Position numbers and translations under genes: made by a program | Assembly (NCBI GenBank): GCA_023242925.1 | Contig: CP096134.1 | Span: forward strand, 1,389,944-1,453,943 | Length of the DNA stretch: 64,000 bases | Reading direction: 5' to 3' | DNA from: Hyphomonadaceae bacterium JAD_PAG50586_4 | GTDB lineage: Bacteria; Pseudomonadota; Alphaproteobacteria; Caulobacterales; Aquidulcibacteraceae | Shown: positions 43,577 to 56,680 of the stretch, in pieces | How the letters are laid out: each line of letters opens with the position of its first letter | Numbering within the stretch: position 1 is the stretch's first letter | The notes under the pieces: model-generated | The model's database searches: none | Told to the model about the DNA's origin: nothing | The model's input: the letters and a program-made list of their open reading frames with translations, nothing else

Positions 43577-43585
43577 GCGCTATAT

Positions 43586-43706
43586 CCTCCCCGCGATGCG
43601 GGGAGGTGCTGAGCGTAACGAAGCGCAGGGGCGCGTTTGGCTTGTTGATCGCTTGCCCCTCAGTCTCGCGCTGCGCGCGCGGCAGCTCCCCACTCAGTGG
43701 GGAGCA
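43586..43706. repeat. Dispersed palindromic element, copy 1 (intergenic)
   Basis: Starts with the hairpin CCTCCCCGC-GAT-GCGGGGAGG and ends with GCTCCCCACTCAGTGGGGAGC. Between them lies a variable core with AACGAAGCGCAGGGG and GCCCCTCAGTC. It fills the whole gap between oppA and the convergent S9 peptidase gene. Related copies are at 52991, 56554 and, as a left-end fragment, 49617. Confidence 0.8.
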
Positions 43707-51445: not shown

Positions 51446-51961
51446 AGGGGGCGGCGCCAGAGCGTCAGCAGTCGCCTTGAAGGGTGCTTCAACTGGCGCC
51501 CCGGTGATCAATAAGTATGGTATCGCAAGCCCGAGGGCGGCAAACACCAGACGCCGCGTCAGCGAATTAAATGCTGGCAAGCGCCAGCTGAGCGGGTTGA
51601 GAGCAACGGCTGCGAAAAGGCGCCCAGAATAAATCGCGAGTGTTGTGATCCACGCGATGGAGCGGCAAGGCGACAAGTACGTTGCCGTAACGCGTGAGAG
51701 CCCAGCGCGTACAAGACTATCCCGAGGCTTCCCAAACAGCCAGCAAGTCTGCCGATTTTGGGGAGGCTTTGCCTGGCGGCAGTGTTGCTCACTTTAAGGC
51801 GTCCTCAAAACCGCCCCCGCAACAATCCAGCAAAACCAAGCTTCTCCACACGCGCATCGTCGCTTTGTGCATCGTTCACTTGATCCAAATTTACCAAAAA
51901 CTAACCATCCCGGCCGACCGTCCGGCGTTCGGAAACGGATTAAGTGAAGAGGGGCCAGAAT
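51446..51961. other. 516-bp gap with a decayed or frameshifted minus-strand frame
   Basis: No clear gene. On the minus strand a GTG near 51792 starts a frame with one hydrophobic helix (AGCLGSLGIVLYALGSHA); after a frame change near 51700 it continues as IAWITTLAIYSGRLFAAVA and LVFAALGLAIPYLLITGAPV, the hydrophobic pattern of a small membrane protein, and then runs into the gor antisense strand. This may be a broken gene or chance. The part next to parA (51830-51960) is AT-richer and probably holds the parA promoter. Confidence 0.3.
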
Positions 51962-52834
51962 ATGCCCGCGCGTTTGGTTTCAGTGATCAACATGAAGGGC
52001 GGCGTGGGCAAGTCCACGACGACGGTTTCGCTTGCTGAAACGCTTGCTCTGCATCAGCGCCGCCGCGTGCTGGTGATCGATCTCGATCCGCAAACCAACG
52101 CTTCGATCATGGTCGCCGGTCCCGACAAGTGGAACGCGATGCGCGAGGCCGAGCGCACGCTCGATTTCTATTTTGAATCCTATATCGTCCAGCAGCGCCC
52201 AAAACCGTTCAAGCAATTGATCGAGCTCAAGGTCAGCGACCTCAAAGGCAAGCCGGACGTTTCGCTCTGCGCTTCGGCGCCGGAATTCCGCATCGTCGAA
52301 CGCGACATGATCGAAAGTTTCGTCAAGCGCGGCTTCCAGATCGATCAAATCCAAAAATGGATTTGCGAGCGCTTCGCCAACGGCATCAAGAACGTCGTCA
52401 ACGAATACGATTACATCCTGATCGATTGCCCGCCCGGCATTTCGCTGTTCGCGGAGGCGGCTTTGATCGCGGCCGATGCGATCCTTGTGCCCTCGATCCC
52501 GGATTACGTGTCGCGCTTGGGCCTCATCACTTTCCGCAAACGCGCGCTCCGCCTCATCAATGAGCGTCGCGGCGGCCCGTCGCAGCTCATGGTGCTGGCC
52601 ACCAAATACGACGAGACCTTCTCGCTGCACCGCTCGGAAGCCTCGCTGCTGAAGGACAATCTCGGCGAAGCCATGTTCGATGTGCGCATTCCCCAGCACG
52701 TTGATATCGCCAAGGCGGCCGAATGGTCGGAAACGCCGCGCACGTTCGAACAAAAGTACGGCGCGATGGCGCCGATCGTCGCCAAGCTCGGCGAGGAATT
52801 CGTCTCCAAAGTGGAAGTCGCGCAGGCCCTATGA
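51962..52834 (+). CDS. Orphan ParA-family ATPase
   Basis: 290 residues. Deviant Walker A MKGGVGKSTTTVSLAETLA near 11-29, Walker A' region DLDPQTNASIMVAG, Walker B YILIDCPPGISLF. No ParB gene and no parS-like site are visible nearby, so it is probably not the chromosome segregation ParA; MipZ, plasmid-type and cargo-positioning ParAs share this fold. A distinctive insert (MREAERTLDFYFESYIVQQR, VERDMIESFVKRGFQID) could specify its cargo. The start ATG 51962 has AGAGGGG ahead. Its TGA overlaps the following ATG (ATGA). Confidence 0.85.
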   Translation: MPARLVSVINMKGGVGKSTTTVSLAETLALHQRRRVLVIDLDPQTNASIMVAGPDKWNAMREAERTLDFYFESYIVQQRPKPFKQLIELKVSDLKGKPDVSLCASAPEFRIVERDMIESFVKRGFQIDQIQKWICERFANGIKNVVNEYDYILIDCPPGISLFAEAALIAADAILVPSIPDYVSRLGLITFRKRALRLINERRGGPSQLMVLATKYDETFSLHRSEASLLKDNLGEAMFDVRIPQHVDIAKAAEWSETPRTFEQKYGAMAPIVAKLGEEFVSKVEVAQAL

Positions 52835-53340
52835 GTCTGAATAAGACGCTCGACCGTTTCTTCGACGAAATTCGCCGCGAGGCGAAACGCAATCCCGACT
52901 TCGCCAACCGCCTAGACGCGGTGCTCCAACGCCACGACTCGCGCCGCGACGTGCCAGACGAGGTGTTGGAAGTAGCAGCGCGCGACGAAACTCCTCCCCG
53001 CAAGCGGGGGAGGTCCGAGCGAAGCGAGGGGAGGGGACGTTCCGTCCAAGCGTCGCGCACCGCCCCCTCAGCCGGCTGCGCCGATAGCTCCCGCGCGTGC
53101 GGGGAGCACAAAAAAGCCCCCGCGATCAACCCGGCCGGCCTCTACAAGCGCGAAGGCGAAGACGCGCTTCGCAAAGCGCTCGAGGGCCAAGAACTCAGCG
53201 CGCTCCGCGCCCTCGTCGCCGAGCACAATCTCGACCCCAGCGGCGTCACGCCCTCGCTCACCCGCGACGAAATCGCCGCCCACATCCTCGCCCAAGCCAA
53301 ACGCCGCGCCGAACGCGACGAGAAAATGTTCGACTACTAG
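52831..53340 (+). CDS. ParA-linked partner protein with in-frame repeat insertion
   Basis: 169 residues from ATG 52831, overlapping the parA stop by 4 bp. Two conserved-looking ends frame a foreign middle: the N-terminal helix TLDRFFDEIRREAKRNPDFA, and the C-terminal NPAGLYKREGEDALRKALEG, LSALRALVAEHNLDPSG, TRDEIAAHILAQAKRRAERD, which looks like a helical SAP-like or Rho-N-like module. Residues about 54-94 (PPRKRGRSERSEGRGRS, then QASRTAPSAGC) are encoded by a copy of the dispersed palindromic element and are basic and Ser/Arg-rich, unlike the rest. Function unknown; candidate cargo adaptor or ParA regulator. Confidence 0.72.
   Translation: MSLNKTLDRFFDEIRREAKRNPDFANRLDAVLQRHDSRRDVPDEVLEVAARDETPPRKRGRSERSEGRGRSVQASRTAPSAGCADSSRACGEHKKAPAINPAGLYKREGEDALRKALEGQELSALRALVAEHNLDPSGVTPSLTRDEIAAHILAQAKRRAERDEKMFDY
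52991..53110. repeat. Dispersed palindromic element, copy 2 (inside a coding region)
   Basis: Left hairpin CCTCCCCGC-AA-GCGGGGGAGG, right hairpin GCTCCCGCG-CGT-GCGGGGAGC, core with GAGCGAAGCGAGGGGAGGGG and CGCCCCCTCAGCCGGCTGCG. It is read in frame with no stop codon and adds about 40 residues. It lies in the linker between the N- and C-terminal parts of the ParA partner, where an insertion can be tolerated. Resembles in principle the protein-coding palindromic elements of Rickettsia. Confidence 0.75.
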
Positions 53341-56553: not shown

Positions 56554-56680
56554 CTCCTTCCCCGCAAGCGGGGAGGGCCGGCGCGCAGCGACGGGGAGGA
56601 GGCAAGTCCGTTGGACCCATCCGCGCGTCAACACCCCCTTAGTCGCTTACGCGACAGCGCCCCCGTAGACGGGTGAGCAT
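56554..56680. repeat. Dispersed palindromic element, copy 3 (intergenic)
   Basis: Left part CTCCTTCCCCGC-AA-GCGGGGAGGG, core with GCGCGCAGCGACGGGGAGGAG and CACCCCCTTAGTCGCTTACG, right part GCGCCCCCGTAGACGGGTGAGC. It shares the left hairpin with copy 2 almost exactly and the CCCCCTTAGTCGCTTACGCGACAGC region with the CCCCCTCAG-C-GGCTGCG-CGATAGC region of copy 2. Confidence 0.72.

Follow-up and report, generated by a model that had tools for sequence, protein, structure and literature searches.

Short palindromic repeats appear to be rewriting the disordered loops of a few proteins in a genus of Hyphomonadaceae-like bacteria. We put at roughly 80% the probability that such mobile palindromes repeatedly land in a few disordered loops, survive there only when they are read through, and then erode. 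The case at hand is a copy of a GC-rich palindromic element, here called family A, that lies in frame within a gene overlapping a parA-like gene, in a 64,000-nucleotide stretch of the genome of Hyphomonadaceae bacterium JAD_PAG50586_4 (hereafter the window; contig CP096134.1, positions 1,389,944 to 1,453,943). The genomes of the genus are referred to by number, G000 being the 4.18-Mb genome that holds the window; its relatives are mostly represented by metagenome assemblies.

The parA-like ATPase gene (51944..52834, forward strand, GTG start as listed) matches AAA_31 (PF13614, E 4.3e-30), and its product scores under every NCBIfam equivalog cut-off. The gene for its putative partner (52831..53340, forward strand), which has orthologues in 28 genus genomes, overlaps the parA stop by four bases (ATGA) and encodes 169 residues (MSLNK...MFDY), laid out as conserved N-terminal helices (residues 1-41), a linker (42-98) and a conserved C-terminal helical part (99-169). 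AlphaFold2 predicted helices at residues 3-39 and 101-165, with residues 46-95 structureless at a pLDDT below 50. Neither Pfam nor NCBIfam has a family that the protein matched; the sequence had led us to suspect a SAP- or Rho-N-like C-terminus, but a Foldseek search against the PDB, where nothing scored below E 1, lent this no support. Proteins of this kind were seen in the genus and in a few related Hyphomonadaceae or alphaproteobacterial MAGs only, and the gene adjoins parA and accC. To judge from its sequence, the partner protein is probably made, and the insert with it translated.

The family A copy in this gene occupies 52990..53108 on the forward strand, with a core of 119 nt, and its codon-by-codon reading is T-PPRKRGRSERSEGRGRSVQASRTAPSAGCADSSRACGEH. 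A covariance model built from 12 copies, several of them from the window and from partner linkers, gave it 93.7 bits (E 1.4e-18 in the window); the scores of the copies that went into the model are inflated. Two checks are free of this circularity: copies outside the model (those of G011, G012 and others) and a BLAST search with the raw 120 bp, which recovered from its own genome many dispersed partial and full copies with E values of 1e-14 to 1e-5. Over the whole of G000, about 22 distinct strong family A places were found. Two dispersed copies in the window, both on the forward strand, are at 43583..43706, found with the covariance model within no convincing gene, and at 56554..56679, the top-scoring copy of the window, found with both BLAST and the model and spanned by no ORF. 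The original prediction of a dispersed palindrome with both terminal hairpins, running without a stop through the 169-residue gene, is confirmed by these BLAST copies and by the open frame.

Family A consists of four hairpins and a central GGAGGGG/CCCCCTC stem, which joins two hairpin arms. The order is hairpin A (CCTCCCCGCAAGCGGGGAGG), hairpin B, central stem, hairpin C and hairpin D ending GGGGAGCA. In the partner gene, on the forward strand, the 5′ terminal hairpin A (CCTCCCC-GCAAGC-GGGGGAGG) is at 52993..53013, the central stem with its enclosed loop at 53030..53069, and the 3′ terminal hairpin D (GCTCCCGCGCGTGCGGGGAGC) at 53087..53107. The element strand folds at -68.8 kcal/mol (z -2.6), better than 199 of 200 shuffles, and hairpin B exists in three base-paired versions (CC..GG, GG..CC and CT..AG), that is, with compensatory changes. 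Full copies measure about 105-138 nt, and all three length classes modulo three are present; the multiple-of-three length first given for the insert therefore depended on the ends that were chosen.

To what class of element does family A belong? For one choice of core ends, 76 copies had no flanking direct repeats of at least four bases, leaving family A without the target site duplication of a classical MITE. Mobilisation in the RAYT/REPIN manner was rejected, given that G000 has no Y1_Tnp (RAYT) gene and that none of the eight RAYT loci examined elsewhere in the genus carries the element. Rfam gave no match above the gathering score. The GTAG/CGTC REPs are defined by an unpaired tag, an 8-9 bp stem starting with A-T pairs, a CCA tail and a 20-40 bp unit (PMC3733652), whereas family A has the ends CTCCTCCCC.. 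and ..GGGGAGCA, a CCTC that pairs within the stem, a multi-hairpin unit of about 120 bp, and no CCA tail. The CIR elements of Caulobacter and Brucella (Chen and Shapiro 2003, via PMC2229807) resemble it in having two hairpin arms and a linker, a length of about 110 bp and hosts among related alphaproteobacteria; the summary consulted describes them as carrying GANTC sites and lists them without a reading frame. GANTC was found in 6 of 77 family A copies, near or below the background expectation of 0.16 per copy, and membership of CIR was rejected on this point, although the two are set apart by description and not by sequence comparison. Family A, for which no linked transposase was found, probably moves by transposition or gene conversion, and, our coverage of the literature being partial, it may already have been described.

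Across the genus, both ends of the partner protein are kept and its linker is not. A linker-less query was searched against 30 genus genomes and matched all but one; the match in G016 was weak and to another gene, and its exclusion left 28 orthologues, in all of which conservation covers the first 41 residues and the last ~70, as the original prediction had supposed from the appearance of the two ends. Family A is found in 12 of these 28 linkers, an eroded copy in one and none in 15. Both arms, or nearly so, are present in nine (full in G000, G005, G006, G007, G011, G012, G020 and G023; 3′-truncated in G043), only the 5′ part in G019 and G021, and a contig-broken copy in G009. The eroded copy belongs to G001, the 100%-supported sister of G011, and is recognisable as a remnant of its sister's element. 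In the 15 element-free orthologues, a different linker, non-repeat and Ala/Pro/Lys-rich (36-56 residues, mean 45), takes the place of the expected direct join of residue about 53 to 95, and the element-bearing linkers measure 50-70 residues (mean 58). The net gain is thus about 13 residues, which indicates that, for the most part, the element substitutes for linker sequence; the addition of about 40 residues proposed initially is not borne out. Homologues with the same residues and no similarity to the repeat were not found.

The same repeat is read in three codon phases in G000, G019 and G005. The 5′ arm reads PPRKRGRSERSEGRGR in G000; in G019, which shares the junction of G000, one extra C in hairpin A changes the reading to PPPQAGEVRAKRGEGE; in G005, a different subtype with a junction about ten bases off is read in the phase SSPASGGG. 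The insert is basic and Ser/Arg-rich in G000, as described at the outset, but not in its closest relatives, which read the repeat in other phases (PPPQAGEV.., SSPASGGG..). In G005, moreover, a spare 3′ hairpin lies beside AAAAAAGCC, at the end position of the element of G000. The likeliest account of this linker is that a newer element has overlaid an older one, and a local duplication of the hairpin is a possible alternative. Two further observations were made at this locus: G019, besides its half element in the linker, has a further full family A copy that lies about 10 nt beyond the stop codon of the partner gene (L227, G019:C5:265114-265232), and in G009 two contigs break in the partner linker at the element (L058 and L053; end of C2 and start of C3), likely an assembly break at the repeat and possibly a rearrangement.

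The partner gene is one of several such hosts. The search for other in-gene copies in G000 that the original prediction had called for yielded a second in-frame copy, in uvrC, which is the only other convincing one in that genome. This insert replaces three residues that separate the flanking segments in solved UvrC, and it is absent from the UvrC of other genera in the family and order. AlphaFold2 modelled UvrC poorly (mean pLDDT 54), with residues 471-536 among the lowest and free of secondary structure. By labels assigned by eye, the uvrC linker holds family A in G000, G019, G003, G006, G023 and G017; a second family, B, in G005, G018, G007, G014, G009 and G011; a third, C, in G021, G044, G022, G041, G008 and G013; and none or a remnant in G004, G024, G020, G016, G002, G045 and G010. 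Families B and C are themselves dispersed, with 12-36 matches in most of the genomes that bear them; family B has no match in G000. All three sit at nearly the same residues, each in a near-constant phase. Sister or near-sister species, with uvrC DNA identities of 85-91%, nevertheless differ in family: G019 has A and G005 B, G007 B and G003 A, G013 C and G014 B, and G018 B and G008 C. The uvrC labels require a minimum of 16 changes, against 16.4 for shuffled labels, from which it follows that turnover erases the phylogenetic signal at this depth. Some uvrC loci have peculiarities of their own. In the element of G023 (L150), a second palindrome, GTCATCCCGGATCAAGTCCGGGATGAC, which encodes VIPDQVRDD and resembles a CGTC-type REP, is nested in hairpin C. 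The uvrC match of G015 (G015:C5:129129-131162) is in three pieces, the middle one in another frame around an element at 130526, and a real or a sequencing frameshift is possible there.

A comparable picture is seen in mnmA, where the loop between RVRSTRPPVAGKL and LDAPEEGVAPGQ holds family A in G012, its 5′ part in G009, and a fourth palindrome (D), a candidate repeat family, in G005, G007, G018 and G023. It is empty in G045, G022, G019, G006, G008, G021 and G000, the first two of which belong to the clade of G012. The putA loop contains A in G023, C in G018 and G008, and neither in G005 and G021. In a survey of the 60 top-scoring copies outside the partner gene, six were in frame in real genes; the in-gene counts rest on these 60 fetched copies and on about 20 copies of G000 itself. 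Single in-frame family A copies were noted in the lipoyl-bearing linker of an E2 acyltransferase (G019), in priA (G009, reverse) and in an AMP-binding acyl-CoA synthetase (G005) (L174, L206 and L226). The original prediction overlooked this larger pattern in uvrC, mnmA, putA and other genes, as well as the intragenic REPs already known from free-living bacteria (PMC3733652).

How might this distribution have arisen? We propose that a GC-rich family A palindrome spreads through the genomes of the genus, landing widely, so that some copies would fall in coding regions. Such copies would be kept only in disordered, length-tolerant loops, where the downstream domain stays in frame and no stop occurs in the frame read. 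Only a small set of loops may qualify (the partner linker and those of uvrC, mnmA and putA, with priA, the E2 acyltransferase and the acyl-CoA synthetase as single cases), and these would be occupied repeatedly and independently by the families that happen to be active in a given species. After insertion, the repeat peptide would drift, through paired-indel phase shifts, loss of an arm and point changes, towards an ordinary Ala/Pro/Lys-rich linker. The reading frames are consistent with this filter. Among 71 copies outside genes, any one frame is open in 15-48% (mean about 35%), which means that read-through is not automatic; every whole partner orthologue is open through the linker, and no frameshift was found in any partner orthologue where the gene is whole. 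As far as sequence can tell, then, only copies that let the conserved C-terminal part be translated would have survived, and it does not follow that the insert is useful.

Are the elements merely tolerated in these loops, or do they seek them out? As a refinement of the proposed model, and not as its opposite, we tentatively consider the possibility that the elements or their copying machinery prefer loops that already hold an element or a GC-rich palindrome, with gene conversion refreshing the docking sites. Such targeting would account for the near-identical positions and repeated replacement of A, B and C in uvrC, for the G005 subtype that sits beside a 3′ hairpin remnant where the element of G000 lies, and for the palindrome GTCATCCCGG..CCGGGATGAC nested in the uvrC element of G023. 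In addition, the three bases just outside the core are AT-rich and complementary at 57/51/46%, against about 30% in shuffled pairs, an excess that emerged once the 3′ A was included, the first register having looked random. These pairs are of types such as TCA with TGA, AAC with GTT and TTT with AAA (dispersed copies L107-L228). They hint at a palindromic target or at variable terminal repeats, and we treat them as a lead only. However, tolerance and frame selection also concentrate survivors in disordered loops, the complementary bases may belong to the element rather than to the target, and no enzyme is known. More speculative still is a stronger version, in which the partner, UvrC, MnmA and PutA loops would be standing docking sites for distinct families, a new element landing on or converting the old one so that the loop is rewritten about once per speciation, and coding copies would become the best-kept reservoir as the intergenic ones decay. 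In G011 and G020, the best-scoring family A copy is that of the partner gene, the G020 copy having been part of the model.

Could the partner elements instead descend from one ancient insertion, passed down by vertical descent, decaying repeatedly and recombining now and then, with no re-invasion? The decay seen in G001 fits this idea, as does the likeness of partner copies across species (G020-G007 0.88, G007-G006 0.86), the copies of G020 and G006 being closer to other species' partner copies than to those of their own genomes. On a tree built from parA, the partner ends, accC and uvrC, presence of the partner element needs a minimum of 7 changes against 9.6 for shuffled labels, with 6% of shuffles as low, a slight phylogenetic clumping. 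Against it stands G007, which bears the element yet is nested in the clade {G041,(G024,G004),(G044,(G007,G003))}, a placement with which a uvrC-only tree agrees; the other readable members (G041, G024, G004 and G044) have in common a homologous linker free of the element (SKRNKPNAVVPSAPQPPEPVAPPVGLAP and variants). The flanks of the G007 linker belong with this clade: its N-terminal DNA is nearest G044 (0.92), its distal C-terminal DNA nearest G041/G004 (0.93) and its ParA nearest G044 (0.98). The closest match to the element itself is a dispersed copy from the G007 genome (0.89). Immediately 3′ of the linker, 105 nt have no clear affinity, and a short recombination tract is possible there. 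On these sequences, G007 is the clearest gain, and there would have been at least one independent gain in the partner linker. Moreover, sister species differ in subtype and junction (G005 versus G000 and G019), and one insertion cannot give the unrelated families in the uvrC, mnmA and putA loops. We therefore find a single insertion unlikely; for most lineages of the partner gene taken alone, an old insertion with many losses and recombination could still suffice.

A function of the inserted peptide, for instance as an Arg-rich segment that aids DNA binding or ParA regulation, would agree with the basic reading of the insert in G000 (PPRKRGRSERSEGRGR). It seems to us improbable, given that other species use neutral Gly/Ser/Pro/Ala-rich phases or lack the insert while both protein ends stay conserved, and that the region is predicted to be disordered; the repeat-derived peptide is probably neutral or nearly so. 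An assembly artefact, in which a mis-assembled repeat or a homopolymer error made the in-frame element, is hardly credible: the G000 assembly is a single contig of 92.8% estimated completeness whose 5′ hairpin is one C short relative to G019, and the G009 contigs break in this linker, but 11 other independent assemblies have the element in the same linker, those with a whole gene all keeping the frame, the four-C stem recurs in other G000 copies, and an uncompensated indel error would break the conserved C-terminal part.

Repeated landing, read-through and erosion would resemble, in mode of action, two systems already described. First, the Rickettsia palindromic elements (RPEs; Ogata et al. 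2000, 2002) are, as summarised in PMC2229807, palindromes of 105-146 bp, dispersed and also in frame within protein genes, and tolerated by the host. Like them, family A is a dispersed palindrome found both within and between genes, its in-gene copies keep the frame, and element-free homologues exist, so the comparison with Rickettsia drawn originally was apt. The RPE host, however, is a reduced intracellular parasite, whereas the family A hosts are GC-rich Hyphomonadaceae-like bacteria with genomes of 2-4 Mb in which, unlike in the RPE case as described (the comparison being by description only), several families re-occupy the same loops in sister species. Second, intragenic GTAG/CGTC REPs of free-living bacteria, alphaproteobacteria included, encode 20-80 residues (Di Nocera et al. 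2013, PMC3733652). According to that study, their hosts are often DNA repair genes (uvrA, uvrB, recB and dnaE2), CGTC repeats, too, have no dedicated transposase, and in Xanthomonas two recB genes carry different REPs at nearly the same position. What distinguishes the present case is that recurrent sites in four genes (partner, uvrC, mnmA and putA) can be traced over up to 28 species, with families swapping. ERIC/RU-1, RU-2 and RU-3 are small mobile repeats that have likewise been fused in frame to enterobacterial ORFs (Delihas 2007, PMC2759123), but these are other elements in other bacteria, mostly in small hypothetical ORFs and not in the same loops of core enzymes again and again.

Evidence that short repeats create protein sequence has so far come mostly from Rickettsia and from scattered single genes. 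Here, one genus offers a natural time series, spanning at least four genes and as many as 28 species, in which a loop is empty, freshly occupied in frame, phase-shifted, halved, eroded, or taken over by another family. Length variants of UvrC, MnmA and PutA in such genomes should accordingly be read with the warning that they reflect repeats. The series also brings two questions within reach of a test: do the elements choose their sites or does tolerance alone filter them, and at what rate does a translated repeat become ordinary linker?
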